A DNA stretch of 64,000 nt, from assembly GCF_004324755.1 (NCBI RefSeq), contig NZ_SDMQ01000009.1:62001-126000 (forward strand). The letters run 5' to 3'. This document shows positions 7,391-63,002 of the stretch, piece after piece; the stretch's first letter is position 1; each line of letters opens with the position of its first letter. The position numbers and the translations under genes were made by a program. This DNA comes from Propioniciclava sinopodophylli. GTDB taxonomy: Bacteria; Actinomycetota; Actinomycetes; Propionibacteriales; Propionibacteriaceae. The notes under the pieces are model-generated. The model saw only the letters and a program-made list of their open reading frames with translations, searched no databases and was not told where the DNA came from.

Positions 7391-8592
7391 CGCTTCGGCT
7401 CCTCGGACGGCTGGGCGGCCACGACTCCCGGCCCGACCGCGCCACCGGGCCCGCCGGTCATCGGGAAGAAGACCACGACGTCGCCCTCGTTCAGGCCGGC
7501 GGTGACCTCGATCATGCCGTTGGACTCCGACCCGAGCGTGACGTCGGTGGGGGTCGGTTCGGTGCCCCGGCGCACCAGCACCATGCCCTTGGTCTCGGAG
7601 TCGCGCATCATCAACGCCTCGACGGGGATCGCGAGGGCCGGCTCGGCACCGGCGTCGGCGAGCACCTCGATGGTGGCCGGGGAGCCGGCGAACACGTCGG
7701 TCGGCTGGCCCTCGAGGGTGACGACGAGCGGGAAGGACGCCGCGCTCGGCTTGCCCTCCTCGGCGGTCGCCTCGGCGACGACGCCCAGGGCGGTCACGGT
7801 GCCGCGCAGCGGCTCCTTGGCCGAGGACGAGGTCACGACGGCCTCCATGCCCTTGGCCAGCCGCGTCCGTTCGGCCCCACCGACGGACGCCTTCACCTGG
7901 AACGCGCGGGAGATCACCACGACGTCGGCCGCGCCCGGGTCCTGGCCCGGCGACGCGCCCGGCTCGCCGGCGAGCTGGCCGCGCTGGACGTTCACGGCGG
8001 CCACGACGCCGTCGATGGTGGAGGTCAGCTTCGCCTTCTCGAGCGCCTGCTCGGCGTCCTTCAGGGCTTGAGCCTTGACGGCGTGGGCCGAGCGCATGGC
8101 GCTGATGGCGGCCGACTGGCCGGAGCGGCGGGCGTCCTGGTAGTCCTTCCACGCCGCGTCGGTCTCGGCGCGGGCGTCCGTCACGGCCGCACGCAGGTCG
8201 GTGTCGTCGATGGTCGCCAGCACGGTGCCGGGGGTGACGTTGTCGCCGACGTTGACGGCGACGAGGGTGACCTCGCCGGGGCTGGCGAACGACAGGTCGA
8301 GCCGCTGGGTCGGCTCGATGGTGCCGGGCAGCGTGACGCCCTGGGCGAGGGTGACCCGCTCGACGCGGTACTCGGCCTCGCCGGGCCCGCTGCCCGGGCC
8401 GCCGCCCATGAGCGCGTTCATCACCAAGGGCAGGATGAGCACCAGCGCCAGCAGGAGGATGACGGGGATCGCGGCGCCCAGCAGCATCCACTGCCAGGGC
8501 CTGATGGGCCGGCGCTGCTTCTTCGGCCGGGGCGGCACCGCCACGGGGTCGCTGGGCGGGGGGTCGTGCGGGGGTGGGACGGACGCGGTCAC
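7387..8592 (-). CDS. HlyD/MacA-type membrane fusion protein (first gene of export operon)
   Basis: A 401-residue adaptor with a proline-rich N-terminus, a membrane segment at about residues 35-58, split lipoyl halves (SPGEVTLVAVNVGDNVTPG and TIDGVVAAVNVQRGQLAG), a short alpha hairpin and a C-terminal barrel. It starts at GTG 8592 behind CAGGAG. It is the second membrane fusion protein of this four-gene operon and lacks the long repeat insert of the other. Most MacB systems have one adaptor, so the two may form a heteromeric assembly or serve different cargo states. Confidence 0.87.
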   Translation of the reverse strand: MTASVPPPHDPPPSDPVAVPPRPKKQRRPIRPWQWMLLGAAIPVILLLALVLILPLVMNALMGGGPGSGPGEAEYRVERVTLAQGVTLPGTIEPTQRLDLSFASPGEVTLVAVNVGDNVTPGTVLATIDDTDLRAAVTDARAETDAAWKDYQDARRSGQSAAISAMRSAHAVKAQALKDAEQALEKAKLTSTIDGVVAAVNVQRGQLAGEPGASPGQDPGAADVVVISRAFQVKASVGGAERTRLAKGMEAVVTSSSAKEPLRGTVTALGVVAEATAEEGKPSAASFPLVVTLEGQPTDVFAGSPATIEVLADAGAEPALAIPVEALMMRDSETKGMVLVRRGTEPTPTDVTLGSESNGMIEVTAGLNEGDVVVFFPMTGGPGGAVGPGVVAAQPSEEPKR

Positions 8593-8680
8593 GTGGCTCT
8601 CCTGGGGAATCTCCGGCTTGCACCCTACTCTGCCGGTCGGAGCCGCCCCATGCCTGTGACTCGGGTCGATCCCCGATCAT

Positions 8681-8707
8681 CCTCAGGTATGACCCTGAGC
8701 CCTGAGG
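8681..8707. promoter_or_regulatory. Inverted repeat in the exporter-glpX divergent gap
   Basis: CCTCAGG at 8681-8687 can pair with CCTGAGG at 8701-8707, and its inner CTCAGG can alternatively pair with CCTGAG at 8694-8699. The repeat lies in the 223-bp divergent gap between the exporter operon and glpX, where an operator would be expected. No regulator family recognised. Confidence 0.35.
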
Positions 8708-8815
8708 GCATCCGCGCGGGTCGCCCCCACGTGCGTGAACGGGCCCCGTGCGGGACGATGGGCCCGAACACGGCCCTCGACGCGGCCGACCACGACGGGG
8801 AGGTCTTGGGGAGAG

Positions 8816-9820
8816 ATGGAACGGATGGAACGGTTCATGCTGGCCGGGCACAACCTCGGCCTTGACCTGATGCGCGCGACCGAGGCGGCCGCGCTCGCGG
8901 CCGGCCGGTGGGCCGGACGCGGCGAGAAGGAACTGGGCGACAAGGCGGCCGTGGACGCCATGCGTGCGATCCTCAACCAGGTGCGGATGGACGGCACGAT
9001 CGTCATCGGCGAGGGCGAGAAGGACGAGGCCCCGATGCTCGCCAACGGCGAGAAGGTCGGCACCGGCGAGGGCGACAAGATCGACATCGCGGTGGACCCG
9101 GTGGACGGCACCCGACTGCTGGCCTGGGGCATGCGCAACTCGATCGCGGTGCTCGCCGCGGCCGAGGGCGGCACGATGTACGACCCGCACATGTGCTTCT
9201 ACATGGAAAAGCTCGTGGTCAGCCACAACGCCGCCGACGTCATCGACCTCGACGCCCCGATCGCCGACAACATCCGCAAGGCCGCCAAGGCTGAGGGCAA
9301 GGACGTCTCCGAGTTCGTGGTCGGCGTCCTGAATCGCGAGCGCCACAACGACTTGGTCAAGGAGATCCGCGCCGCCGGCGCCGCGACCCGCATGTTCACC
9401 GACGGCGACGTCGCCGCGGCCGTGGCCGCCGCGACCCCCGGCGTCAAGATCGACATGCTCGCCGGCATCGGCGGCAGCCCCGAGGGTGTCGTCACCGCGT
9501 GCGCGATGAAGTGTCTCGGCGGCCGCATCCTGGCCCGCCTGCACCCGACCACCGACGAGGAGCGCCGTCGCACGGCCGAGGCAGGCTTCGACGTGGACCG
9601 CGTGCTCGACACCAACGACCTGGTGGGCTCGGACAAGACGCTGTTCGTCGCGACGGGCATCACCGACGGCGACCTGGTCGACGGCGTCCGCTACCTGCCC
9701 GGCGGCGACGCTCGCACCCACTCGGTCGTCATGCGGTCCGAGTCCGGCACCGTCCGCTGGGTCGAGGCGCAGCACCACCTCGACAAGGTCAACGCCTGGC
9801 GTGAGTCGCACGGCAGCTGA
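8816..9820 (+). CDS. glpX: Class II fructose-1,6-bisphosphatase
   Basis: A 334-residue GlpX-type phosphatase, the usual gluconeogenic fructose-1,6-bisphosphatase of actinobacteria. Motifs: GEGEKDEAPML near the N-terminus, the metal-binding VDPVDGTRL of the inositol-monophosphatase-like fold, and GIGGSPEGVVTACAMKCLGG. The start at ATG 8816 or the second ATG at 8825 cannot be decided: GGGGAG lies 2 nt before the first and 11 nt before the second. It stands alone between divergent and unrelated operons. Presence with isocitrate lyase and malate synthase fits growth on acetate or other C2/C3 substrates. Confidence 0.95.
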   Translation: MERMERFMLAGHNLGLDLMRATEAAALAAGRWAGRGEKELGDKAAVDAMRAILNQVRMDGTIVIGEGEKDEAPMLANGEKVGTGEGDKIDIAVDPVDGTRLLAWGMRNSIAVLAAAEGGTMYDPHMCFYMEKLVVSHNAADVIDLDAPIADNIRKAAKAEGKDVSEFVVGVLNRERHNDLVKEIRAAGAATRMFTDGDVAAAVAAATPGVKIDMLAGIGGSPEGVVTACAMKCLGGRILARLHPTTDEERRRTAEAGFDVDRVLDTNDLVGSDKTLFVATGITDGDLVDGVRYLPGGDARTHSVVMRSESGTVRWVEAQHHLDKVNAWRESHGS

Positions 9821-9900
9821 TCCCACCCGTACCAGCCGCGAAGTGAAGGATCGAACGGGAATGTGAGGTTCGGGCGTAGATTTTCGCGTGGATTGCTCTG

Positions 9901-9906
9901 TATCGT
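9901..9906 (+). promoter_or_regulatory. Putative -10 element for leaderless lysine-catabolic operon
   Basis: TATCGT fits the TANNNT -10 pattern and lies 6 nt before the ATG at 9913, placing the expected transcription start on the start codon. No Shine-Dalgarno sequence precedes this ATG. No clear -35 element. Confidence 0.45.
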
Positions 9907-9912
9907 CACGGA

Positions 9913-11241
9913 ATGGTTGAAACACTCTCGCCCGCCACGATCGCGCCCGACCAAGTCTTCGCGAGCCTCGGTCGCCACATCCTCGTCGACGGCATGCCCC
10001 TGGTCCTGGACCTGCGGAACTCCCGGGGCACCACGTTGGTGGACGAGGCGACCGGGGACGAGTTCCTCGACATGTTCACCTTCTTCGCCTCCAACGCGCT
10101 CGGCATGAACCACCCCGGACTCACCGAGGACGACGAGTTCCGCGCCGAGCTGGTCGAGGCGGCGCTCAACAAGCCGTCCAACTCCGACATCTACACCGTC
10201 GCCATGGCGCGCTTCGTCGACACCTTCGCCCGCGTCATGGGCGACGACGCGATGCCCCACTACTTCTTCATCGAGGGCGGCAGCCTCGCCGTCGAGAACG
10301 CCCTCAAGACCGCGTTCGACTGGAAGTCGCGCCACAACGAGGCGCACGGCCGCAGCCCCGAGCTGGGCACGAAGATCATGCACCTCAAGGAGGCCTTCCA
10401 CGGCCGCTCGGGCTACACCTTGAGCCTCACCAACACCGACCCCAACAAGGTTGCCCGCTTCCCGAAGTTCGACTGGCCGCGCCTGTCCACCCCGTACTGG
10501 GCCGCCGAGCGCGACATGGACGCCGTCGAGGCGGCCACCCTCGCCGAGGCGGAGGCGGCCTTCGCCGCGAACCCGCACGACATCGCGGCGTTCATCATGG
10601 AGCCGATCCAGGGCGAGGGCGGCGACCACCGCTTCCGGCAGGGCTTCCTGGAGCAGATGAAGACCCTGTGCCACGAGCACGACGCCCTGTTCATCTTCGA
10701 CGAGGTGCAGACCGGCGGCGGCATGACCGGGACGCCGTGGGCCTGGCAGCACTACGGCGTGGCCCCCGACGTGATGAGCTTCGGCAAGAAGCTCCAGGTC
10801 TGCGGCATCACCGCCGGCGGACGCCTCGGCGAGGTCGAGCAGAACGTGTTCAAGGTGTCCAGCCGCATCAACTCCACGTGGGGCGGCAACCTGGCCGACA
10901 TGGTCCGCTCGCGCCGCATCCTCGAGGTCATCGAGTCCGACAACCTCATGGAGCGCGCCCGCACCGAGGGCGCCCACCTCCTGGAGCGTCTCGAGGACGT
11001 CCAGTCCCGCCACGGCATCGTCACCAACGCCCGCGGCCTCGGCCTCATGTGCGCCATCTCCCTGCCGGACACCGCGACCCGCAACGAGGCCATCCGCCGC
11101 CTGCAGGACGACGAGAAGGTGCTCATGCTGGGCTGCGGCCAGCGCTCGCTGCGCGTCCGCCCGCCCCTGACCGTCGAGCGCGCCGCGATCGACAAGGCCG
11201 TGGACGCCATCGACCGCGTGCTCACCGCGATGGAGGGCTGA
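9913..11241 (+). CDS. lat: L-lysine 6-aminotransferase
   Basis: A 442-residue class III PLP aminotransferase that moves the epsilon-amino group of L-lysine to 2-oxoglutarate, giving 2-aminoadipate 6-semialdehyde. LAT-specific features are the segment EAFHGRSGYTLSLTNTDPNKVARFPKFDWPR, read here in parts, and IFDEVQTGGGMTGT before the PLP lysine Lys292 in SFGKKLQV. Length matches the family (about 440-450). It is first of three tightly packed genes (1-bp gap, then 4-bp overlap) that encode consecutive lysine-degradation steps. In beta-lactam producers lat supplies aminoadipate for antibiotics; here the neighbours indicate catabolism. Confidence 0.93.
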   Translation: MVETLSPATIAPDQVFASLGRHILVDGMPLVLDLRNSRGTTLVDEATGDEFLDMFTFFASNALGMNHPGLTEDDEFRAELVEAALNKPSNSDIYTVAMARFVDTFARVMGDDAMPHYFFIEGGSLAVENALKTAFDWKSRHNEAHGRSPELGTKIMHLKEAFHGRSGYTLSLTNTDPNKVARFPKFDWPRLSTPYWAAERDMDAVEAATLAEAEAAFAANPHDIAAFIMEPIQGEGGDHRFRQGFLEQMKTLCHEHDALFIFDEVQTGGGMTGTPWAWQHYGVAPDVMSFGKKLQVCGITAGGRLGEVEQNVFKVSSRINSTWGGNLADMVRSRRILEVIESDNLMERARTEGAHLLERLEDVQSRHGIVTNARGLGLMCAISLPDTATRNEAIRRLQDDEKVLMLGCGQRSLRVRPPLTVERAAIDKAVDAIDRVLTAMEG

Positions 11242-51139: not shown

Positions 51140-53110
51140 ATGAGCACGCCCATCGAGGACTACGCCCTGCTCGCCGACCTGATGACGGGGCCGCTGGTCT
51201 CGCGCGACGGGTCGATCGACTGGCTCTGCTTCCCGCGGTTCGACTCCGGCGCGATCTTCACCGCGATCCTCGGCACCCCGGACGATGGACGCTGGAAGCT
51301 CTCCATCGCCGGCGGACAGGTCCTCGAACGCCGCTACCTCGACCACTCGTTCGTCCTGGAGACGCTGTGGCGCTCCGACACCGGGCTGGCGCGGGTCGTC
51401 GACTTCCTGCCGCCCAGCAGTGACCACGCCGACATCGTCCGGCACGTGGAGTGCCTCGAGGGCAGCGTCGTCGTCGAGCACGACCTCATCATCCGCTTCG
51501 AGTACGGCGCCCGGACGCCGTGGGTCCGGCAGGTCGACTCGTTCGGTGGGAAGGCCCTCTACGCGGTGGCGGGACCCAACGCCGTCCAGCTGACGGGCCC
51601 CGCGCTGTCCCCGGCGGCCGAGGCGGACTCCCACGCCGGGCACCACAGCGGTGCCCCGGCCGACCACCTGGTGGGTCGCTTCCCCCTCCAGGAGGGGGAC
51701 AAGGCCGACTGGGTGATGACCTGGTCGCACTCGTACCACAAGGCCCCGGAGCCGGTGGATCCCGCCCGGGCGCTCACCGACGCGCTCCAGTTCTGGGGCG
51801 ACTGGTCGTCCAACCTGGAACCCGAGGCGTCCGGCTGCCCGCCGCAGTACCGCCACCTGGTCATGCGGTCGCTGCTGGTCCTGCGGGCCCTGACGCACAC
51901 CGAGACGGGCGGCATCGTGGCCGCACCCACGGCGTCCCTGCCGGAGGAGTTCGGGGGGTCTCGCAACTGGGACTACCGCTTCACCTGGTTGCGCGATGCG
52001 GCGTTCACGATCGAGGCGATGATCGCCCACGACTTCCTCGACGGCGCGCGGCTGTGGCGGTCGTGGTTGTTGCGCGCCATCGCCGGCGAACCGGAGGAGA
52101 TCCGGATCATGTACGGCCTGGGCGGGGAGAAGCAGTTGCCCGAGATGGAACTGGACCACCTGGCCGGGTACGAGGGCTCGCGCCCGGTCCGGATCGGGAA
52201 CGGGGCGGCCGACCAGTACCAGGCCGACGTCGCGGGCGAGGTGATGATCGCGCTGGCCAAGCTGCGCGACGCGGGTCAGGCCGAGACCCACTACAGCTGG
52301 GGGATGCAGCGCAACCTCATCCAGTACTGCATCAAGAACTTCGACCGCCCCGACCACGGCATCTGGGAGATGCGCGGCGACCTCCACTTCTTCACCCACG
52401 GGCGGGCGATGATGTGGGCGGCGTTCGACCTGGGCATCAAGGCGGTCCGGGAGCACAGCCTCGAAGGGGACGTCGACACATGGTGCGCGTACCGCGACCG
52501 GCTGGAGAAGGAGATCTGGGAACGCGGCTTCGACGCCGAGCGCAACACCTTCACCCAGACCTACGACGGCACCGAGGTGGACGCCTCCCTGCTGCAGCTC
52601 ACGCACGCTGGCTTCATCGCGCCCGACCACCCCGCCATGCTGGGCACCGTCGCCGCCATCGAGCGGGACCTCCAGGACCCGTCCGGCCTCATCCGCCGCT
52701 ACCGGACCGAGACCGGCACCGACGGCCTCGCCGGCCACGAGTACCCGTTCCTGATCTGCTCGTTCTGGCTGGTGGAGCAGTACGCGCTGTCCGGACGCCG
52801 CGAGGACGCCGAACGCCTCATGGACACCCTCGTCGGCTGCGCCAACGACCTGGGGCTGCTCGCTGAGGAGTACGACCCGCAGTCGCGGCGCCTGGCGGGG
52901 AACTTCCCGCAGGCCTTCAGCCACCTCGGCCTCATCCGCGCCGCGGACGCGCTGTCGGGGCAGAGCCAGGACGAGTCCGTGGGCAGCTCGGGTCCGAAAC
53001 CCCGGGCCGGCCGCTCCGACGCGGGGCCCCAGGCCGGCAGTGAGCCGGCCACCCAGGCCAGGGCGGAGGAGCCGACGCGTCAGACCGGTCCGGACGAGCC
53101 GGCCGGGTAG
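51140..53110 (+). CDS. GH15-family glycoside hydrolase (trehalase/glucoamylase-like)
   Basis: A 656-residue (alpha/alpha)6-barrel enzyme of GH15. An N-terminal domain opens with PIEDYALLADLMTGPLVSRDGSIDWLCFPRFDSGA (read in parts). The catalytic barrel starts at GGSRNWDYRFTWLRDAAFT. Expected catalytic glutamates lie in HGIWEMRG (acid) and LLAEEYDPQ (base). Closest described relatives include the mycobacterial GH15 trehalase, so alpha,alpha-trehalose is a reasonable but unproven substrate. ATG 51131 is an alternative start. The Ala/Pro-rich tail overlaps the converging hypothetical gene by 31 bp. Confidence 0.88.
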   Translation: MSTPIEDYALLADLMTGPLVSRDGSIDWLCFPRFDSGAIFTAILGTPDDGRWKLSIAGGQVLERRYLDHSFVLETLWRSDTGLARVVDFLPPSSDHADIVRHVECLEGSVVVEHDLIIRFEYGARTPWVRQVDSFGGKALYAVAGPNAVQLTGPALSPAAEADSHAGHHSGAPADHLVGRFPLQEGDKADWVMTWSHSYHKAPEPVDPARALTDALQFWGDWSSNLEPEASGCPPQYRHLVMRSLLVLRALTHTETGGIVAAPTASLPEEFGGSRNWDYRFTWLRDAAFTIEAMIAHDFLDGARLWRSWLLRAIAGEPEEIRIMYGLGGEKQLPEMELDHLAGYEGSRPVRIGNGAADQYQADVAGEVMIALAKLRDAGQAETHYSWGMQRNLIQYCIKNFDRPDHGIWEMRGDLHFFTHGRAMMWAAFDLGIKAVREHSLEGDVDTWCAYRDRLEKEIWERGFDAERNTFTQTYDGTEVDASLLQLTHAGFIAPDHPAMLGTVAAIERDLQDPSGLIRRYRTETGTDGLAGHEYPFLICSFWLVEQYALSGRREDAERLMDTLVGCANDLGLLAEEYDPQSRRLAGNFPQAFSHLGLIRAADALSGQSQDESVGSSGPKPRAGRSDAGPQAGSEPATQARAEEPTRQTGPDEPAG

Positions 53111-53637
53111 TCCAGCAGCGGCTGGTCGGCCCAGGCGGCGAGGACCTCCTCGGTGATCCGCCAGCCCTCCTCGACGCCGTCCCCGCGGACGGTGAAGGTG
53201 GGGTCCCCCTCGAGGATCCAGCGGATGACCGACCCGTACGCCGTGAGGGCGGGATCCGGCATGGACGAACTGACCGTCACGCGTGAGCGTCCGCGGCTGT
53301 CGAACGGGCCGCCGACGTTGAGGCCGAACTGCAGGTGCTCGTCCTCGAAACCCATGCACACCGTGTTCGGTGGCAGGTCGCGCGACAGGCCCGCGTAGGT
53401 GTGCGGTGGCTGCCTGAAGGTGACGAGGATCTCCTGGCGCGGGTCGCCGATGCCCCCAAGTGGGAGCGGCACGACCTCGCCGACGACGAGTGGTGGAACG
53501 CGCGAGAGCCCCTCCTCTACGGACCCGAGCGCGTGCATGATCTCCGCGACGTCTTCCGGGCGCTCCTCGACCAGCGACCGGAGCAAGCTGCACAACTCCG
53601 GCTCTCGCGTCCGGATGGACCCCTGGCTTTGACGCAT
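53080..53637 (-). CDS. Hypothetical protein
   Basis: A 185-residue protein without a recognised family. It begins with an acidic helical segment (EPELCSLLRSLVEERPEDVAEIMHAL). The middle is beta-rich (EVVPLPLGGIGDPRQEILVTF, DLPPNTVCMGFEDEHLQFGLN; read in parts), and the end is acidic with Trp (EEVLAAWADQPLLDYPAG). No signal peptide or membrane helix. No clear ribosome-binding site. It converges on, and overlaps by 31 bp, the GH15 gene. Confidence 0.6.
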   Translation of the reverse strand: MRQSQGSIRTREPELCSLLRSLVEERPEDVAEIMHALGSVEEGLSRVPPLVVGEVVPLPLGGIGDPRQEILVTFRQPPHTYAGLSRDLPPNTVCMGFEDEHLQFGLNVGGPFDSRGRSRVTVSSSMPDPALTAYGSVIRWILEGDPTFTVRGDGVEEGWRITEEVLAAWADQPLLDYPAGSSGPV

Positions 53638-53744: not shown

Positions 53745-55424
53745 TCACGCGATCGTGGTGGCTGACCTCGCCGTTCCAAGCCGCTGACAAACGTCATCCC
53801 CGCCCATGTGCCGAATCACGTCCGGATCACCCACCACGATCAGTCGATCGGTGGCGCGAGACAAGCCCACGTACAGCCGCTCGGCGGCGCGGTCACGGCG
53901 TCCGGACTCGTTCACGCACAGCACTACCGCACGGCGCTCCATGCCCTTGAAGCCCAGGACGTGCCCGTAGAAGATGTCGTCGGATTCCCAGAACTGCTTC
54001 CAGTAGTCCTTCTGGCCGAGAGTCTCCTGCCGCTCGGTCTGCACGGGGTGGCGCTGGCCGAGGGTGATCAGGGCGATGTCGGCGGCGGACCATCCCTCGT
54101 CGAACAGCACCTCCACCTGGTCGTCGGCCACGCCGAGTGCATCCTCGGAGGAACAGGCCACGAAGGTGACCTCCGGCCCGTCCTCGCCGCGGATCTCCAT
54201 GCCGGTCGGCGCGAGCGGGACGAAGGTCTCGGCGATCTGGCGAGTGTTGCGCAGGTTGTGGTCCAGCACGAGCGGGACGAGCTGCACCGGCGGACGCCCG
54301 AACCGGGCGAACACGCGCTGGCGCTCGTCTGAGTAGGCATACAGGCCGCTGCTCTCCTCGTCGCGGAGCGCGCCGAGCAGGGGGAGCCACCAGTCGTCGG
54401 CGAAGTCCTGCGCCTCGTCGACGATGATCGCGTCGAACTTCTGCTCCGGCGTCAGCTGGGTGGCCTTCTCCGCCATCTGGCGGGGGAGTTCGACCTCCCA
54501 GAAGTCGGAGTCGTCGCGTCCGCCGAAGTCGGTGATGCCCCAGCGCCGGCCGAGGTCCTCGAACGTGCCGACGAACCGCGGACGCTTGCCGCGCGAGCCC
54601 ACCATCAGCGACCGCTCGAGGTAGGTGGCCAGCCCGTAGGAGTAGCAGACCACGGCCACGTTCTTGCGTTCGCCGAGCAGGCGTCCGGACGCCAGGTCGC
54701 AGGCCTGCTGCATCGCCAGGACCGTCTTGCCGCTGCCTGCCGCGCCGCGGATCTCGAGGCGGTTGAGGAGCCGCGTGACCTTGAGCAGTTGCGCTTGTTC
54801 GGCGGTGAGGCGTTGGACGCGTTCCTCGCGGTCCTCGGCGAGCGCGATGGTGTCGCGTGCGGGCAGGAAGCGTCCGTGCAGGATGTCGAGGATCACGTTC
54901 ACGTCTTCCAGCGTGGGCGGACGGGCGTCCTTCTGGTACCGCCACGTGGTGTCCCAGAGGCGGGCACCGACCTCGTCCAGGTCGTTACGCCCGCTGACCT
55001 GCCAACGGGGGAGGTCCGGCATGGCGAACTTGTCGTCAAGATCGGTGTGGGCCAGTACGACGTGGTGGCTCCACCGGACGCGCGTCCGGCTGCCCCAACG
55101 CGGGTCGGCCTCGACGTACTTGCGGAGCGCGTACTGGGCGTCCCGGGCCTGGTCGACGGGGTAGATCCGCTCCCGGTCCTCTCGCTGGATGTACCACGCG
55201 CCGTCCTCCACCCACACGTGGCTGCCCTTGACCTCGACGGCCACGATCCCGGAGCCGGGCATGAGGACGAGCAGGTCCACCTCGTGGTCCTTGTGCTCAT
55301 CGGCGATGTGCAGGTTGGGCACGACCGTGCACTCGGGTCCGAGCTGTCGTGTCACCTTCTGCCAGACGTCTCGTTCGGACGCCGTGGTGAAGATCGGTGC
55401 TTCGGGCGGGGTGAAGCCCGTCAT
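53745..55424 (-). CDS. NERD nuclease-domain / UvrD-like helicase fusion
   Basis: A 559-residue protein. The N-terminal NERD domain (residues about 1-130) has a PD-(D/E)xK-like core: HEVDLLVLMPGSGIVAVEVKG. An SF1 helicase domain follows, with Walker A RGAAGSGKTVLA at about residue 228, Walker B IIVDEAQDFAD, motif III-like YSDERQRVF, and motif VI ERLYVGLSRATDRLIVVGD. Length is that of a compact SF1 helicase without the large 2B insertions. ATG 55424 is behind AGGAG. Such NERD-helicases occur in defence and DNA-repair contexts; the divergent sigma-like gene and the McrBC locus favour defence. Heptamer content resembles the host genes, unlike the McrBC part. Confidence 0.83.
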   Translation of the reverse strand: MTGFTPPEAPIFTTASERDVWQKVTRQLGPECTVVPNLHIADEHKDHEVDLLVLMPGSGIVAVEVKGSHVWVEDGAWYIQREDRERIYPVDQARDAQYALRKYVEADPRWGSRTRVRWSHHVVLAHTDLDDKFAMPDLPRWQVSGRNDLDEVGARLWDTTWRYQKDARPPTLEDVNVILDILHGRFLPARDTIALAEDREERVQRLTAEQAQLLKVTRLLNRLEIRGAAGSGKTVLAMQQACDLASGRLLGERKNVAVVCYSYGLATYLERSLMVGSRGKRPRFVGTFEDLGRRWGITDFGGRDDSDFWEVELPRQMAEKATQLTPEQKFDAIIVDEAQDFADDWWLPLLGALRDEESSGLYAYSDERQRVFARFGRPPVQLVPLVLDHNLRNTRQIAETFVPLAPTGMEIRGEDGPEVTFVACSSEDALGVADDQVEVLFDEGWSAADIALITLGQRHPVQTERQETLGQKDYWKQFWESDDIFYGHVLGFKGMERRAVVLCVNESGRRDRAAERLYVGLSRATDRLIVVGDPDVIRHMGGDDVCQRLGTARSATTIA

Positions 55425-55661
55425 GGTTTGGCTCCTGTCTTCAGCGACTGGGGTTCAGGAATGCTATCCCGTAGTACTTCGCCGGGCCTGATCACCTGAT
55501 TGCACTACAGTCGCGAGCGTGACTGGCCGGCCGCGAACCGAAGCACGATGAGTCCGTCCGGACCACAGTGACCGTAGTGTGCGCAGTGCGAGCCGCATCG
55601 GGGAGAAAGTGTCAGGGGCGCCGGTTAGCGTGGCGGGCAGGAACACGAAGGAGTGAGTGAA

Positions 55662-57890
55662 GTGGACGAAGAGGGGCACCGCGTTGTGGTGTGGTCGCAG
55701 GTCTTTCCCTGGGCCGCAGTGGCTGACGAGGAGCGCAGCGACTGGTGGGACGAGCCTGTTGGCGACGGGAGCGATGCGGACCGCGAGGCACGTCTCAGCG
55801 TGATCGCCCAGCTGGCCCATTCCCTCACCCGGGTGCGCTTGGCTGCCCTGTTCCCTGGTCTGGATCCCCAGGCAAACCTCCTCTGGATGGGCCTCCCGAT
55901 ACGCGCGCGCAATGTCTTCAACCGTGAGCGCATGCACACGTGGCGGGACTTGGGCGACAAGACCCTTGACGACGTCCTGGATTGGCGCAACATGGGCGTG
56001 GGCACGGTCGACGCGTTGCTCGAGTTCTTGGCGGCTGAATCGCTCGCGGCGGCCTTGCGGGAGCCGGGCCTGGGCTTCGAGGACGCGAACGAATGGGACG
56101 CCAGCGACCCCGAGGTGGTGGGAGGCACTGCGATTCAGGTCCCGACTAAGGTCTCCGCCCCGTGGTCAGAGGCGGTCCACCGCGCGGTCGAACCGCTCGC
56201 GCGGTGGAATGCCCTCGTCGGCCACCCGAACGCCCCGCTCCTGCGCGTGTCGGCTCCTGTCGGTGGCCCGGATGTGGTGGCCGGAGTCGCGGGACGCGGC
56301 TTGCTCACCGCGGCTCAGCTCCTGGGCGATGACGCCGTCGACATCGCCGACCTGCTGGAGGATCAGCTCGGCCTGTTGGAGCCGCGGGAAATGGTCATCC
56401 TCAAGGAGCGGATGTTGGCGGACGATCCCGTCACCCTCGACCAGTTGGGCCAACGCTTCGACGTCACCCGCGAGCGGATCCGGCAGATCGAGACCCGGCT
56501 GCGCTCAAAGCTGCTGGACTTCGTTCAGCAGGACCAGGCACTCCGCACCCTCTTCGCAGTCTTGGACTCCCTCGTCGGCGAGGTGACGGCCCTGGAGGAC
56601 GTCCTCCAAGTGATGCCGGCGCTGGGCCGGACTCTAGCCACGGTCAACCAGCCCGTGTGGCGGCTTCTCGACCGGTTGGGCGATTCGTTCGAGGTCCGTG
56701 GCGGTTGGTGTGTGCGACGCACGTACGAGGAGGCGGTTGGCCGGACGAAGGTCCGGCTGGAGGAGGCGGCCGACGGCAACGGTCTCGTCCCGCTCACAGG
56801 CCTTCGGTTCGTCCAGACGATCGACCCGGCTCGTCAGGCACGCCTTGATGAGGAGTGGATCGCCGCGTGTGGCTATCCCATCGCGGCGGGCCATGTGCTG
56901 GTCCGCGCCCGCAGCCTGGGGGACTGGGGCGTCGCCGTCCTGGCCCTGGAGGGTGAGCCTCTGGAGGCGGAGGCGATCCTGGCCCGCATCGGAGTGGAGC
57001 GCAGCTTGGGCTCGCTGCGCAATGCTCTGGCACTCGAGCCACGCGTGATCCGCGTCGACCGTGACGTCTTCGCCCTCGCCGACTGGGGGCTTGAGGAGTA
57101 CGGCGGCATCCGCCAGATGATCAAGGACCAGGTCGATGCCGGTGGCGGACATGTCCTCTTGACCGACCTGCTCGAGCATGCGGAGCGCTATGCGGTGGCG
57201 CGCTCAAGCGTCATTGCGTACGCCAGCGCCCACCCCTTCGTGTGCACCAGCGGGGTCGTCCAGTACATGCCGCGCGCTGCGGCGGGCAACGGACGTGAGC
57301 CAGCCCGGACGAAGCGGCTCTTCCGCGGGGACGCGGAGTGGCGTCTCCGCATCACCGTGACCAACGATCACCTGCGGGGTAGTGGATTCCCGATCCCCAG
57401 TGCCGCGGCCTCGCTGGTGGGGTTGCAGCCGGGGCAAACGCAGCTCCTGTCGGCCACGTTCGGCGAGCAGGCGGTTCGGTGGACGGGGCTGCAGCCCTCC
57501 CTGGGATCAATCCGAGCGCGGCTGCTCGAGATGGGCGTCGGTTTGGGGGAGGACGTGTTCCTCGTCCTCCAGGACGACAGGGTCTTCGACATCCGACGCG
57601 CAGAGCGACCCACCGGGCGCCCACTTCTCGACGCGGCACGACTGACCGGCTCCCGCCTGCAACGGGATTCCTCTGACCATGAGATCACGTTCCACCTTGC
57701 CCAAGCGGTGCAGGCGGAAGGCGCGCTCGGCATGGAGGCCCTTCGGGGGGTCTACTTCCAGCGGGGGGACGAGGACGTCGCAGCCCTGCTTCTCGATGCG
57801 CAGGAGCACCAGGAGCGGGACACGTGCGAGCCGACGGACGGCTCCCAGAAGGAACTGTCGCTGGCGGTGACGGCTCTCAACGGCGAGTGA
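55662..57890 (+). CDS. Large protein with RNA polymerase alpha-CTD-like and sigma region-4-like HTH segments
   Basis: A 742-residue protein. Residues about 77-122 (GLPIRARNVFNRERMHTWRDL, then WRNMGVGTVDALLEFL) have the helix-hairpin-helix pattern of the RNA polymerase alpha C-terminal domain. Residues about 240-285 read LEPREMVILKERMLADD, then TLDQLGQRFDVTRERIRQIE, the sigma-70 region-4 helix-turn-helix. A long C-terminal part (about 290-742) has repeated winged-helix-like segments (LEAEAILARIGVERSLGSLRNAL) and no catalytic motif I recognise. GTG 55662 is chosen because AAGGAG lies 8 nt upstream. It diverges from the NERD helicase and converges on mcrC. Probably a DNA-binding regulator or sensor; function unknown. 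Confidence 0.8.
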   Translation: MDEEGHRVVVWSQVFPWAAVADEERSDWWDEPVGDGSDADREARLSVIAQLAHSLTRVRLAALFPGLDPQANLLWMGLPIRARNVFNRERMHTWRDLGDKTLDDVLDWRNMGVGTVDALLEFLAAESLAAALREPGLGFEDANEWDASDPEVVGGTAIQVPTKVSAPWSEAVHRAVEPLARWNALVGHPNAPLLRVSAPVGGPDVVAGVAGRGLLTAAQLLGDDAVDIADLLEDQLGLLEPREMVILKERMLADDPVTLDQLGQRFDVTRERIRQIETRLRSKLLDFVQQDQALRTLFAVLDSLVGEVTALEDVLQVMPALGRTLATVNQPVWRLLDRLGDSFEVRGGWCVRRTYEEAVGRTKVRLEEAADGNGLVPLTGLRFVQTIDPARQARLDEEWIAACGYPIAAGHVLVRARSLGDWGVAVLALEGEPLEAEAILARIGVERSLGSLRNALALEPRVIRVDRDVFALADWGLEEYGGIRQMIKDQVDAGGGHVLLTDLLEHAERYAVARSSVIAYASAHPFVCTSGVVQYMPRAAAGNGREPARTKRLFRGDAEWRLRITVTNDHLRGSGFPIPSAAASLVGLQPGQTQLLSATFGEQAVRWTGLQPSLGSIRARLLEMGVGLGEDVFLVLQDDRVFDIRRAERPTGRPLLDAARLTGSRLQRDSSDHEITFHLAQAVQAEGALGMEALRGVYFQRGDEDVAALLLDAQEHQERDTCEPTDGSQKELSLAVTALNGE

Positions 57891-57908: not shown

Positions 57909-59113
57909 TCAGCCATCCTGAAGTTGCAGCGCGACGTGGTCCAGCGCCTCCGAGATTCTCCCCGGCGACCCCGACAGCGGCACTCGGATGGTGTCCAGTC
58001 TGGTTGCGACGTTGCGGACCTGAACACGACGGGCGGGCAGCTCAGTTCCCTCTCCCGCATCGCAGTAGACCAAGACGCCGCGCGGGAGGCCCAGGGCGGT
58101 GCAGTAGGCCAGCAGTTGGTAGTAGTCGGCGCTGCGGCCGCGTCCGTCCGTGGTGAGCTTGTACTTGCTGTCGGCGACCAGCTTGGCCTTGCCGGAGGCG
58201 TCCCGGAACAGCAGGTCGGGCTCCCCGGGGAGCTGGCCCTGAGCTCCCAGCGGGACCACCTGTTGCCGGGTCACGGTCCAGGTGCCGCGGAGACGGTGGC
58301 GAAGACTGGCGAACACGAAGTCCTCGAAGACCGCGTTCATGTCCACCAGGAAGGCCGACACCCGTGCGGTGCCGATCCCCTGAGCATGGCCGGCGCCGCC
58401 GAGGATGAGTCTTGCCAAGCCGACAGCCGGTTCATAGTGCTCGTTGAGGCGAGTGATGAGTGGGCCCGGATGGGCCAGGTCGTCCCACGCAGCGGGCCCA
58501 CGCCCGGGAGGAGCTTCAGCAGGCGGCGGAGGGTGAAGGTCGGCTGTGCGGGCACCACGGGGTTGCGGAGCAGGGCCAGGGCGGCAGCTGAGACGATCCG
58601 GTTGACGCGGGTGTCGATCGACCACTCGTCATAGCGGCAGCTGATGGGGGTGGGAAGTGCCACGGCGTTCGCCTGGGCCGGCCAGTCGATCCGGCCCCGC
58701 AGCGCGACCAGCCGGTCGGACTCCTCGTCGTAGGCATGGTCGACCCCCAGGACGAGCGCCCGTTCCAGCATCCGCGCGTACCAGGCGGCGACCGCCGCCG
58801 TCAGGCTCTGGGACGCGTGCGTGGCCAGCTGATGGTCGAACGCGATCCTGTGGGTGCTCCAGGTGAGCAGGTGCACCACGTTGTCCACCGGGACCTTGGG
58901 GACGACATGGACCACCAGCCCTGGAATGGTGACCGAGCCCACATGCGACGTCGCCCGCACCGAGTACCCGGCGGCGCTCGGGCTCACCGTGAGGCGAGAA
59001 CCGGCCGCGACTTGGAGCATCCGGGCTTGCCGGTCACTGATCGGGAGCTCGGCTTGCTTGTGTTCGAGGATCTCGACGGTGACGGTGTCCGAGTCGGGTC
59101 GACGTCCGGTCAT
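57909..59113 (-). pseudogene. mcrC: McrC 5-methylcytosine restriction subunit, frameshifted
   Basis: The N-terminal part (from ATG 59113) reads in one frame: VTVEILEHKQAELPISDRQARML, then VVPKVPVDNVVHLLTW and RGRIDWPAQ. Near 58484 the McrC sequence passes to the next frame: DDLAHPGPLITRLNEHYEPA, NAVFEDFVFASLRHRL, and the PD-(D/E)xK nuclease core GEPDLLFRD with LVADSKYK. Adding one G to a GGG run (58484-58486 on plus) restores LRGDDLAHP and makes the span exactly 402 codons, the normal McrC length. So this is a one-base deletion or a sequencing error. ATG overlaps the mcrB stop by 4 bp. If the lesion is real, the nuclease is lost. Confidence 0.85.
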
Positions 59114-61572
59114 CGGGCCGCCGCTGGGTCGGAGGCTTGGGTCCCGTCCTCCTCCTGGGCGTGGGCAGGGTGCAGACGCAGTTCGGTGGCGTAACGGTCC
59201 CGGACCTCGGGCCACCTCCAGCGGACCAGCTCCTCCGTCCTGCCCCACAGCAGCTCTTCGAGGGTGGGGTAGATGTTGTACTCCCAGATGCGCTGGAGTG
59301 CCTGCTCGGAGAGGTCCTCCTTCATGAAATGACTCGGGCCTATGACGAGGTGGTCGCCCACTTCGACCCGAAGTTCATCGTTGATCGCGTCGAGCATGTC
59401 CGCGACGGCCGTGCTGCGGCTGTGGTCGGTGAGCCAGCGGCGAAGTAGGCCCTTCATGGCGCCCAGGTGCGGGAAGAACGGGATGAAGTGAAAACGCCGG
59501 CGCAGGGCGGCGTCCACCAAGGCCACCGACCGGTCAGCGGTGTTCATCGTGGCGATGAAGAACAAGTTCGGGGGAAGGATGAACTTCTCCTGCGGGCGAT
59601 ACAAGGTGGCGACAGACACGTCGCGGTACTCCAGGAGGAACAACAGCTCACCGAACACCTTGGGCAGGTTGGCCCGGTTGAGCTCGTCGATGACCATGAC
59701 GTGGGGCCGGTCGGGGTCATCGATTGCGGCCTTGGCAAGGAGTGACAGCGGTCCCCGTCGCAACTCGTAGGCGACTGTGCCGCCGTCAAGGGTGGGGCGC
59801 AGACCCTCGAAGAAGTCCTCGTAGGTCGTTGCCGGGTGGAACTGCACCACGGTCGTCCGTGCAGGGTCCTCCTCGACCAGGGCAGCCGCCAGCCGCTTGG
59901 CCAGGTAAGTCTTGCCGGTTCCCGGGGGGCAGTAGAGGACCACTTGGCCCTTGTCCTCCAGGAGGGTGACGATCTCGTCGAGGACCGTTCGATCCACGTG
60001 GAGGTCCTCGGCGGCCTCGGCGATGAAGTCGCGGGTCAGGACAGGCTCGGGGTCGTCCTCCGCTTCGGTCGGCTCGGGCTCGTCGTCAGGGTCAACCAGA
60101 ACGCCGTCCTGGAACGCCAGGAACAGTTGCCACTCCTTCTCGGTCCACGCCTCGGGGCGCTTGTCCAGGGACGTGAGGGTCCACAGGGCGCCCTGCGCGT
60201 CCAGCCGGTCACGCAGGGGTTGCTCCCAACCTGCCGAGTCGCGGACGAGTTCGTCGAAGAACGCGTAGGCGCGCGTGACGAAGCCGCCCGGCGTGGCGCT
60301 CTGGGGCTCGTTGCCCCAGCCCGCGAGTCGCCAAGCCTTCCGGGTCTTCTCGACCTTCACGGGCGGGTGGACTTCGGGATCGTCGGCCATCAACAGCACT
60401 GACGCCAGCTTCACGGCGGGCCCCATCGTGGTGAGCCCCGCGGGACGGATCAAGGAGGCGAATTGGTCGACGCGCTCACTCTCTGAACGGGAGTCATTCC
60501 CCCACAGGGACTCCACCGCTCGGCGGGCATCCTCGGGGTTCGCCTTCGCCCACGCATCGAAGGTGGCGCGGGACCGCCACCCCATCAGGTTGTTGTTGGG
60601 GTCGAACAACCCCTTCCTCAGGGACTCGTACCACTCGACCACCCCGACCGGGTCGTTGTGCCGCCTGGCCTTGAGTTGGCGCGAGAAGTCCAGCTTGTAG
60701 TTCCGCTCCTCGGCGTCGAGGTCCATGGTCGTCCAGATGCGCTGGACCCACCGCACCACGCTCGTCCACGCCCTGTCCTTGTTCCACAGGTGCGGCAGGG
60801 GGTCGGTTTCGGCCGCGTAGTAGTCGAAGCATGGGCCGTAGGTTGAACTCAGCGCCTGCCTGATCTGCAGGAGGGCGCGGTCCATGTCTGTTTCGTCGCG
60901 TACGTGCCCGTTGAACCGGCTGAGGATCAGCTGCTTGTGCCGAGGCGAAACCGTGTGTTCGAAGGTGTCCGGGAACAGGAGATGGAGGAGCCCGAGCTTG
61001 GCCGCGTCGGCGGAGGAGTCGGGGGTGGCCACCACGACATCGCGGAACTGGAAGGGGTCGCGCAACAGCTCGGCGTAGCGGTCCGGGCTCTGGGACTTGA
61101 GCGCCATCGCGACGTGGACCAGGCAGGTGAGCTGGACGTCCCGTCGCGTGTTCGCCCACTGGCCGGGATGGGCGATACCGGGGCTCAGGGAGGCGTCGAC
61201 CTCGGCGGGGATGGTCGGGCGATCAGGGTGCCAGGAGAGGATCGCATTGAGGTCGGCTCGCTTCTTCGGGGCAGAGATCGCGCCTTCCCAGACCCACCAG
61301 AAGAAGAGAAGGTGGAGCTCTGCCATCAACTGGATCGCGGCGGGGGAGGCGTCGCTCAACTGCTCGTGGAGCTTGGCGAGGAACTTCTTGTCCCCGGTCT
61401 CGTCGGGCCTCTCGACGAACTTCACCTGGAGCTCGTCGAAGTTCTGCACCGTCCAGATCCGAGATCCTGGAGTGAGGATTGAGTCACCGTTGGGCAGGAC
61501 ATCAGTGGCCCAGCGCCAGGCGAGCCGGTAGATGCGGTCCATGGCCTCCTGCTCACCCTCGGTGCTTCTCAT
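59110..61572 (-). CDS. mcrB: McrB-type AAA+ GTPase of a type IV restriction system
   Basis: An 820-residue protein. The C-terminal AAA+ domain has Walker A YCPPGTGKTYLAKRLA at about residue 545, Walker B VMVIDELNRANLPKVFGELL, and the McrB-specific MNTADRSVALVDAALRRRF (sensor 1 and arginine finger). An N-terminal region of roughly 480 residues, containing LGLLHLLFPDTFEHTVSPRHKQL and an acidic linker, would be the DNA-recognition part. It is much longer than the about 160-residue E. coli domain and not one I can name. ATG 61572 overlaps the stop of the upstream gene. McrB translocates DNA and activates McrC. Confidence 0.92.
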   Translation of the reverse strand: MRSTEGEQEAMDRIYRLAWRWATDVLPNGDSILTPGSRIWTVQNFDELQVKFVERPDETGDKKFLAKLHEQLSDASPAAIQLMAELHLLFFWWVWEGAISAPKKRADLNAILSWHPDRPTIPAEVDASLSPGIAHPGQWANTRRDVQLTCLVHVAMALKSQSPDRYAELLRDPFQFRDVVVATPDSSADAAKLGLLHLLFPDTFEHTVSPRHKQLILSRFNGHVRDETDMDRALLQIRQALSSTYGPCFDYYAAETDPLPHLWNKDRAWTSVVRWVQRIWTTMDLDAEERNYKLDFSRQLKARRHNDPVGVVEWYESLRKGLFDPNNNLMGWRSRATFDAWAKANPEDARRAVESLWGNDSRSESERVDQFASLIRPAGLTTMGPAVKLASVLLMADDPEVHPPVKVEKTRKAWRLAGWGNEPQSATPGGFVTRAYAFFDELVRDSAGWEQPLRDRLDAQGALWTLTSLDKRPEAWTEKEWQLFLAFQDGVLVDPDDEPEPTEAEDDPEPVLTRDFIAEAAEDLHVDRTVLDEIVTLLEDKGQVVLYCPPGTGKTYLAKRLAAALVEEDPARTTVVQFHPATTYEDFFEGLRPTLDGGTVAYELRRGPLSLLAKAAIDDPDRPHVMVIDELNRANLPKVFGELLFLLEYRDVSVATLYRPQEKFILPPNLFFIATMNTADRSVALVDAALRRRFHFIPFFPHLGAMKGLLRRWLTDHSRSTAVADMLDAINDELRVEVGDHLVIGPSHFMKEDLSEQALQRIWEYNIYPTLEELLWGRTEELVRWRWPEVRDRYATELRLHPAHAQEEDGTQASDPAAAR

Positions 61573-62303
61573 GGTGTCGATTCCCTTCCCGCTGGAGACG
61601 CATCCTCGTCGGGATCATCCAGTGCGTGCAACAGCTCCAACAGATCCTTCAGATCGTCCCATCGCCTCTCCCGTACCGCATGCGCTTCGGTCACGAGGTC
61701 AATGCAGTGCGATGTCGAGTAGTACGTGGGCCCCTTGCGCATGAGCCGCAGGTTCAGGGTCATCATCGCTTCCTGCACCACTTGCTCGGTGAGGATCGCC
61801 AGCGCCAGGGGCAACGGTGCGACAAGTTGGAACCGGTCGCCGCCCCCTGGCTTCCAGTAGTGATCTGTCACCATGAAGGCGCCTCCGAAGGTGTCCCGCC
61901 AGCCGGGCCCCCACTCTCGCTCGAGCGGGCTCTTGGCGAGATGGAAGTAAGCGATCAGCAGGCCGCCGTCGTCTCTCAAGGTCAGTACTTCCTGCATGTT
62001 GATGTTGACGCGTGAGCACACCCCCGGCTGAGGGAGGCAAGACATCGACCAGAAGGTGAGTTCCGTTCGGTTGGGGAAGGGGATCGCCATGGTCAGATAC
62101 AGGCCGAGGATCCACAGGGCGTCCTCTGCGTTTGGCTGCTTCATGAACGTGGTGAAGCGGCGCCTGAACCGGCGACGGAGATCCTCGTCCACTGGGCGCG
62201 GGTCAGGATCGGATCCAACCTCTTCCCACACCGTCAGCCAGTGCTCCTGCTCCTCCGGGGTGACCAACTTGTCGAACTGGCGCTCGCCATGGACGACGCT
62301 CAT
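61569..62303 (-). CDS. Uncharacterised McrBC-operon protein
   Basis: A 244-residue protein encoded directly before mcrB with a 4-bp stop-start overlap. N-terminus is charged (LVTPEEQEHWLTVWEEVG, DEDLRRRFRRRFTTFM). A beta-rich centre (RVNINMQEVLTLRDDGGLLIAYFHLAK, GDRFQLVAPLPLALAI; read in parts) is followed by helices and an acidic tail. No nuclease or NTPase motif and no known family recognised. Start ATG 62303 has only a weak ribosome-binding site. Translational coupling suggests a component of this McrBC variant. Confidence 0.7.
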   Translation of the reverse strand: MSVVHGERQFDKLVTPEEQEHWLTVWEEVGSDPDPRPVDEDLRRRFRRRFTTFMKQPNAEDALWILGLYLTMAIPFPNRTELTFWSMSCLPQPGVCSRVNINMQEVLTLRDDGGLLIAYFHLAKSPLEREWGPGWRDTFGGAFMVTDHYWKPGGGDRFQLVAPLPLALAILTEQVVQEAMMTLNLRLMRKGPTYYSTSHCIDLVTEAHAVRERRWDDLKDLLELLHALDDPDEDASPAGRESTP

Positions 62304-62345
62304 CTCGGCCAAATTTCTGAGGCGCAGCCCCTTTGACTCAAGAGT

Positions 62346-62927
62346 ATGGATGCAGTGGCGCTCCTCGTCCGCGATGCTCTGGGTTCCTTCGACGGGTACG
62401 ACCTGCGCTTCTTCGATGACCCGGCGGACATGCGCGCTGAGCTGTTGCGTTTGGACGCCGAGGTCGGGCTCGCTCGGCTGGTCGCCGGTTTCGCGTGGCC
62501 TTGGGTGAGCAAGTCCGACAAGGGCGCGTTCGACATCACCGTCGACAGGTTGGCGCTGCGCTGGAACGCCACCGACAAGGACTGGATCAACGCGCCCGGG
62601 TCCGTGCTCGAGGTCGGCTCCATCCACACCGTGCAGGGCTATGACCTCAACTACGCGGGCGTCATCATCGGGCCGGACCTCCGCTACGACGAGGCGTCCG
62701 CACGCATCGTGGTCGACCGTGCGAACTACCACGACAAGAAGGGCAAGGAGAACAACCCCAAGCTGGGGCGCCAGGTCACCGACGACGACCTGTTGACGTA
62801 CATCACGAACATCTATGCCGTCCTGCTCACGCGCGGCATGCGGGGCACCTTCGTGTACGTCTGCGATCCCGCTCTGCGGGAGCATCTCCGTCCGTTCTTC
62901 AGCGCGAACTCGGGCAAGGCTGGATAG
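62346..62927 (+). pseudogene. C-terminal remnant of a DUF2075-type DNA/RNA helicase
   Basis: A 193-codon open frame matching only the end of DUF2075 helicases: VLEVGSIHTVQGYDLNYAGVI, GPDLRYDEASARIVVDRANYHD, and LLTYITNIYAVLLTRGMRGTFVYVC (late SF1 motifs). The Walker A and Walker B part is absent. It begins just beside the start of the McrBC operon on the other strand, so the N-terminal two-thirds was probably lost when that locus was inserted. A short functional derivative cannot be excluded. Confidence 0.72.
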
Positions 62928-63002
62928 GCCGGCGGCGGCCGCACCGAGTTCCCTGGGCGCACAATGGGCATCTGGGGTCCCGCCTGCCACCGGCAGGCGA
63001 CC

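Follow-up and report, generated by a model that had tools for sequence, protein, structure and literature searches.

What a protein assembled from parts resembling those of RNA polymerase might do among restriction genes is the question raised by a stretch of 64,000 nucleotides from Propioniciclava sinopodophylli (the window). An earlier note had singled out a gene in it whose product was said to combine two RNA-polymerase-derived DNA-binding modules with a 450-residue uncharacterised remainder, and to be encoded between a NERD helicase and McrBC. The target choice of large helicase-nuclease defence systems is often unexplained, and the family to which this protein belongs provides a concrete candidate gene.

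The locus and the gene

The position claimed for the gene (55662..57890, +) was borne out. On one side lies the gene for a NERD-UvrD helicase (53745..55424, -; profile matches), a candidate partner, and on the other mcrC (57909..59248, -; Pfam) and a mcrB-like gene (59110..61572, -) identified by profile matches (AAA_5, with a PRK11331 match below the cut-off). As the gene is divergent from that of the helicase and convergent with mcrC, the gap to which is 18 bp, it shares an operon with neither neighbour. mcrC is split over two frames (58337-59248 and 57909-58625), profile positions 1-188 being found in one and 177-317 in the other, so that McrBC may be broken or there may be a sequence error at this point. 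An open frame at 61569-62990 (-), with no notable match in Pfam, NCBIfam or PADLOC, overlaps the start of mcrB by 4 nt and is possibly a third gene of the mcrBC operon. The surroundings also include an SLFN-g3 helicase gene (62346-62927, +), apparently truncated since only the C-terminal half is present (profile 189-354 of 354), and, bordering the defence genes on the left, a C-terminal fragment of glucose-6-phosphate dehydrogenase (53080-53637, -; profile 158-281 of 296). A match to JetA of the Wadjet system (DUF3375, E 1.9e-127) begins 0.8 kb to the right of the window (G000:C43:126827-128215; L216 827-2215) and the genes after it resemble JetB, JetC and JetD by eye. With McrBC, the truncated SLFN-type helicase and the JetA match beyond the window edge, the locus qualifies as a defence island. 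Plasmids yielded no close DNA relative of the segment 53000-62000. None of 12 other genomes of the window's genus carried a homologue at E<=1e-15, so the gene is accessory in that genus.

The open frame runs from 55653 or 55662 to 57890 (+). GTG at 55662 is the better start, because a ribosome-binding-like AAGGAG (55648..55653, +) stands 8 nt ahead of it, and gives a protein of 742 residues.

Architecture of the protein

From N- to C-terminus the protein consists of an alpha-CTD-like module, sigma region 4, three tandem winged helices, a conserved C-terminal domain and a helical tail. Three alignments were used: A1, with 21 family members including the window protein, A2, with six members, and A5, with 17 sequences over aa 395-720. 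An AlphaFold model of the full-length protein from six sequences had a mean pLDDT of 52.3, and use was made of its sigma region 4 and winged helices only; Foldseek searches with the full-length model gave zero matches at E<=0.001.

The alpha-CTD-like module (aa 76-123; 55887..56030, +) matches RNA_pol_A_CTD of Pfam at E 2e-4 with 21.3 bits, below the cut-off of 23.8, and the best match in the 21-member family has E 8e-7. Sigma-70 region 4 (aa 237-284; 56370..56513, +), with its recognition helix VTRERIRQIE at aa 268-277, matches Sigma70_r4 above the cut-off (E 5e-9) and was also found by NCBIfam and PDB sequence searches. Among the members of A1, 19/21 match Sigma70_r4, 8/21 HARE-HTH (PF05066) and 7/21 RNA_pol_A_CTD at E<=0.1; the recurrence of the first and last of these indicates that both matches are more than chance, and the two modules claimed in the earlier note can be accepted. 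Ten-residue blocks of the model reach a pLDDT of 63-89 for aa 231-290, and weak Foldseek matches to sigma region 4 include the -35-bound structure from T. aquaticus (TM-score 0.73 by target length). The structural support that had been looked for was thus obtained, with moderate confidence, for sigma region 4 and the winged helices, whereas the alpha-CTD-like N-terminal part was not confidently modelled and is backed by profile only.

R270, E271, R274 and Q275, which we take to be the counterparts of R584, E585, R588 and Q589 of E. coli sigma-70, and R81, N84 and G112, presumably equivalent to R265, N268 and G296 of E. coli alpha (both pairings made by eye), are putative DNA-contact residues. 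All seven are invariant in the six-member A2, as is G114. A wider count was made over 54 family rows (57 less 3 duplicates), with fragments and gaps included: the four sigma residues were retained in 35, 39, 35 and 36 rows respectively, and the three alpha residues in 24, 16 and 24. In the MZA-linked and NERD-linked branches described below, and in several other rows, the sigma recognition helix is degenerate, and a single promoter-like target is therefore impossible for the whole family.

The protein is neither a sigma factor nor an alpha subunit. In a sigma-70 factor region 2 is responsible for core binding and -10 recognition, and region 4 was the sole sigma match in the window protein in the Pfam, NCBIfam and PDB sequence searches, on which grounds a sigma-factor identity was rejected. 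The alpha subunit of RNA polymerase has N-terminal assembly domains in addition to its CTD; in the window protein the CTD was the sole alpha match, just below the Pfam cut-off.

Three winged helices can be assigned within the remainder, with moderate confidence, from model pLDDT blocks of 55-85 for aa 361-540. Winged helix 1 (aa ~355-415; 56724..56906, +) is placed by model secondary structure and weak matches to tandem winged-helix folds. Winged helix 2 (aa ~416-478; 56907..57095, +), also seen in the model, is putatively of the HARE-HTH or RNA-polymerase delta-like kind; no PF05066 or HARE match was found in the window protein alone at E<=1 in Pfam, although 8/21 members have one, and the best solved-structure match of the A5 profile is the delta subunit 8x6g_E over ~aa 416-478, at only E 0.018. 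Winged helix 3 (aa ~477-535; 57090..57266, +) is seen in the model and by Foldseek, with an MCM_WH match in 1/21 members. The winged helices of SelB and STK19 are weak Foldseek matches to the model.

The description of some 450 residues as uncharacterised no longer applies to these winged helices but continues to hold for the conserved C-terminal domain (aa ~545-665; 57294..57656, +), which was delimited by alignments, carries RGSG...G...W...GSIR motifs and has no convincing Pfam, PDB or fold match. Its G573 is kept in 52/54 and its W607 in 50/54 of the wider family rows, which makes it the family core. Scattered Pfam matches at E>=0.02 were all that 19 scanned members yielded, and the best PDB match in a profile search had E 1.1. 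A two-sequence AlphaFold model of the domain had a mean pLDDT of 48 and a best Foldseek match of E 0.96. A B3-like DNA-binding barrel, suspected from the motif pattern, was not upheld, B3 domains appearing only at E 3-7 in Foldseek. The helical tail that follows (57675..57887, +; alignments and model) has a conserved RGD motif (R701).

Distribution of homologues

At the level of the class, 48/394 genomes match at E<=1e-8, the home genome included, with some matches covering the C-terminal part only. The taxonomic family of genome G188 contained 69/301 matching genomes at E<=1e-20, and a sample of the phylum contained 6/396 at the same threshold (profile A2, home genome included). Seventeen plasmid records match at E<=1e-5, two of them over >=80% of the query, and 16/17 are from actinobacterial genera; from the named plasmid and contig relatives we infer that the genomes of the chromosomal homologues are actinobacterial. 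There was no homologue at E<=1e-5 in 50,697 phage records. Three scans of viral contigs with C-terminal queries (short exact peptide patterns) found no homologue, and the first scan of viral contigs had given, among the matches listed, matches to sigma region 4 only. The 80 loci kept among the matches listed from a scan of genome contigs were mostly ordinary sigma factors, together with one near-full relative without the alpha-CTD part (L037) and four partial relatives from Patescibacteria. No description of the family as a defence component was recognised in the open-licence literature, most subscription papers being outside its scope; an earlier mention in a 2012 HARE-HTH paper is possible.

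Homologues linked to Pbe

The nine closest chromosomal homologues (G188, G134, G204, G566, G449, G418, G429, G460 and G1048) match at E <1e-110, and 7/9 are encoded directly upstream of pbeA and pbeC. The remaining two adjoin a GmrSD/Orf5-type gene (G204) and nothing recognisable (G418). The homologue of G1048, found after the Pbe pattern was noted, also precedes pbeA, and the same gene order is found for a homologue on an Arthrobacter plasmid (E 2e-118) and for one in G594 that is truncated by the end of its contig (E 1.2e-77). PbeA at E<=1e-60 is present in 6/301 genomes of the family of G188, and a homologue lies directly upstream in 6/6. At L197 and L268 the homologue gene and pbeA overlap by 4 nt. 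PADLOC identified PbeA (2.5e-257) and PbeC (6e-270) at L197, with DndA (SspA slightly better), DndB and DndC nearby; a 157-aa PbeD-sized gene after pbeC at this locus matched no PADLOC model. At the same locus (7087-10980) the homologue frame extends N-terminally by ~490 residues with repeated Cys/His segments and a weak zf-His_Me_endon match (E 1e-4, below the cut-off).

The 742-aa protein is distinct from PbeB, whose small gene lies between those of PbeA and PbeC: a PbeB-sized frame is conserved there in 6/6 loci read, so that the homologue is additional to PbeB. It would appear to be a further gene of the Pbe system, with a predicted role in Pbe immunity. The close homologues are encoded with PbeA and PbeC and the window protein is not. 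In the home genome PbeA found one 52-residue match (E 8.5e-4), there being no full PbeA, and a search without positive control gave no match to DndC; the copy in the window must therefore have other partners or act alone. That the NERD-UvrD helicase is its most likely partner, with McrBC less likely, is a guess.

Other contexts and fusions

In a second branch the homologue lies just before mzaB. Thirteen genomes were chosen by their split match pattern from the 69/301 matching genomes, and in 13/13 a relative of MzaB (E<=1e-10; identical in two genomes) was found, at a distance from the homologue match of <=0.2 kb in 12 genomes and of 0.7 kb in G397. At L232 MzaB and MzaC were identified by PADLOC. 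A Neorhizobium plasmid gene before mzaB shares only region 4 with the family profile and consists, by eye, of ankyrin repeats plus sigma regions 2-4. Two observations concern MZA-type operons: the first gene of a plasmid operon at L258 (3356-5239) has, by eye, ankyrin repeats and sigma regions 2-4, with a cytosine methylase and a Vsr gene adjoining, and a UG5 reverse transcriptase-nitrilase (PADLOC E 3e-296) adjoins the operon at L233 (16877-19879, -).

A NERD helicase ~50% identical to that of the window is encoded directly downstream of the homologue in two genomes (G557 and G566). A wide pairing of this kind was expected and was not found: within the genus concerned it occurs in 2/17 genomes, the helicase being present in 6/17 and, in the other four, 57-60 kb off or on a different contig. 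A UvrD helicase lies between or beside tandem copies of the homologue at five loci. Other neighbours are REase-ARP (L210), ZacC with a cytosine methylase (L222), an MmeI-type IIG enzyme (L206), an SLFN helicase with GIY-YIG (L230) and, on Microbacterium plasmids, UvrD/PDDEXK and DUF4011 genes. Fusion of the homologue to an RNase_T (DnaQ-type) and a BRCT domain occurs in L037 (Candidatus Corynebacterium avicola) and in L230. Two small plasmids of Microbacterium chocolatum (L033 and L034) carry near-identical gene blocks, the homologue on L034 being broken over frames. By eye, the homologue at L223 (2448-11304, -) is directly upstream of recC-like and recB-like genes and a group of homologues at L200 stands beside a nuo-like gene.

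Neighbourhood tally and tree

A tally was made of 39 neighbourhoods, taken from best or chosen hits rather than at random and including two from one genome (G566). In 24/39 a recognisable defence or helicase-nuclease gene adjoins the homologue or lies <=~3.5 kb from it (L223, recBC-like, by eye), and in 15/39 it does not (L200, L201, L205, L208, L209, L211, L212, L214, L219, L224, L227, L228, L229, L231 and L235, the last a 3.6-kb contig). The earlier note had counted homologues mostly outside defence islands as evidence against a defence role; 8/9 of the closest chromosomal homologues lie beside a defence system, and in the wider family such a neighbour was not recognised in 15/39. The reading given in the note is partly supported, and the sensing, control or action on invader transcription that it suggested are possible roles.

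Probes taken from these 39 loci matched 0/20 control regions, a figure that reflects the rarity of the probe genes and not an unbiased enrichment since the probes came from the same neighbourhoods, and flanking and control genes were for that reason compared by PADLOC at E<=1e-15. The 78 genes flanking or between homologues at 38/39 loci (the homologue of L213 was missed by the gene caller) gave matches to 37 families, which overlap; among the matches listed were PbeA with 7 members, C3a187 (NERD+UvrD) with 5, MzaB with 3 and Orf5 with 1. Of 79 control genes chosen, 2 were dropped for their great length, and the remaining 77 matched three families with one member each. A caveat that applies to the count of 78 is that the simple gene caller misplaced genes around L202, so that some may be artefacts.

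A quick tree was built from 50 of the 57 rows; one row from a short contig, 3 fragments and 3 duplicates were excluded. In it L199, the Pbe clade and the window protein form a group (SH-aLRT 80, an open fork), and the nearest relatives of the window protein by path are Pbe members; L219, without Pbe genes nearby, falls inside that clade. Linkage to Pbe is seen at two separate places (L207 and the main clade), and the remaining contexts occur on additional branches. This pattern suggests repeated recruitment; the node to which the window protein belongs is weakly supported.

Possible roles

Genes for relatives of the protein adjoin those for helicases, ATPases or nucleases in a number of different systems. 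We put at about even the chance that the family is a target-recognition or loading subunit that would direct helicase-nuclease defence machines to their targets. The alpha-CTD and sigma region 4 would together hold on to promoter-like DNA (a -35 with its UP element), extra affinity or a reading of the modification state might come from the winged helices, and the C-terminal domain would dock on a motor. This motor would be PbeA with PbeC/PbeD in Pbe operons and, in the window, most probably the divergent NERD-UvrD helicase and less probably McrBC; the outcome would be a helicase-nuclease loaded onto foreign or unmodified DNA. Such a role is supported by the domains, the place before pbeA and mzaB, the exonuclease fusions, the PADLOC tally, the contact residues that are kept and the NERD helicase downstream in 2 genomes. 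It is weakened by the lack of a shared operon in the window and of a full PbeA and a DndC match at home, by the 15/39 neighbourhoods without a recognisable partner, L219 of the Pbe clade among them, by a NERD pairing of 2/17 and by the degraded recognition helices. A bolder and rather unlikely extension is a promoter-reading immunity, in which a head modelled on RNA polymerase (with alpha-CTD, sigma region 4 and delta-like parts) would know an invader by its promoters and plug into interchangeable Pbe, MZA, NERD-helicase and possibly McrBC machines, which would block or destroy the transcribed invader.

The main rival, possible if somewhat doubtful, is a transcriptional regulator of the defence locus, BrxR-like in function, that would bind its own operon's promoter and control expression, for instance by acting at UP and -35 elements as an RNA-polymerase decoy. 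RptR is reportedly a precedent beside BrxR. Promoter-reading modules with conserved putative contact residues are what such a regulator would need, the homologue is the first gene before pbeA and before mzaB, and the Neorhizobium plasmid gene before mzaB resembles a true sigma factor (regions 2 and 3 by eye). BrxR itself, in the part of PMC9122601 that deals with it, sets the precedent of a regulator family found beside diverse defence systems. A regulator accounts less readily for the nuclease fusions at L037 and L230, for a C-terminal domain that is long and conserved yet has no match of known regulatory function, and for a gene that adjoins very different systems; in addition no motif common to nine upstream regions was found beyond what shuffled sequence gave, in a weak test with approximate starts.

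The recognition helix bears in two directions on a direct attack on the transcription of the invader, in which the protein would occupy strong foreign promoters or capture RNA polymerase and the helicase encoded next to it would strip or cut the DNA concerned: the residues of this helix are retained in close relatives, but the MZA and NERD branches have lost it. An alpha-CTD, sigma region 4 and a delta-like winged helix combined in one chain would suit this mechanism, yet the contact with RNA polymerase is purely predicted, and we consider it improbable. Least probable of the rivals is a housekeeping factor, for DNA repair or associated with RNA polymerase, that drifted next to defence genes. 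It draws on the conserved chromosomal contexts of some genera (tandem copies accompanied by a UvrD helicase, recC/recB-like genes at L223, nuo-like at L200) and on the stand-alone sigma-R4/HARE proteins of Patescibacteria, against which stand the lack of the gene in the 12 other genomes of the window's genus and the close linkage with Pbe and MZA genes, which recurs.

If the family is a recognition subunit, it would be a case of RNA-polymerase modules put to new use as an interchangeable targeting head in immune systems that are otherwise unrelated. A DNA-binding-type protein stands beside every PbeA of one family sample (6/6) and also at the position of MzaA in another system.

Comparison with known systems

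There is a likeness to PbeABCD, the phosphorothioate-linked exclusion system (CxC ABC-ATPase/DndE), in that the closest homologues lie directly upstream of pbeA, at several loci with Dnd genes. As described in the relevant part of PMC6459918, Pbe consists of four genes, PbeB having only 66 aa; relative to that system the homologue would be a fifth component, and the window genome is without a full PbeA. The accounts of the mode of action of Pbe in the passages concerned of PMC6459918 and PMC10853773 are in dispute.

Members of the family also precede MzaB-MzaC, as MzaA does, and share sigma region 4 with MzaA. The window protein scored 43 bits against a cut-off of 800 for MzaA (NF041931), with a match limited to region 4, and was rejected as MzaA on this basis. 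To RNA polymerase delta and HARE-HTH proteins the likeness is the tentative one of winged helix 2, from PF05066 in 8/21 members and the weak match to delta 8x6g_E; the delta subunit has an acidic tail. Passages of PMC10853773 and PMC11037411 propose HARE-HTH, without proof, as a reader of modified DNA.

PglW of BREX type 2 has an alpha-CTD-like domain followed by three winged helices in the passage of PMC12839542 devoted to it, an arrangement that the window protein resembles. That passage gives PglW a kinase and an inactive STAND ATPase and names no sigma region 4, and no kinase or ATPase match was found in the window protein in Pfam. BrxR (WYL) regulators resemble the family as DNA-binding proteins found beside many different defence systems (PMC9122601, in the part that treats them), whereas their domain content is unrelated, no WYL domain match being found in the window protein in Pfam.

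The sigma-R4/HARE proteins of Patescibacteria (L038, L039, L040 and L114) have the same order of sigma region 4, spacer, HARE and next winged helix, but comprise only ~340-375 aa and have neither the alpha-CTD-like part nor the C-terminal domain. The gene at L040 (9884-10915) has neighbours that look, by eye, like ordinary housekeeping genes. These proteins are possibly a simple form of the same core.
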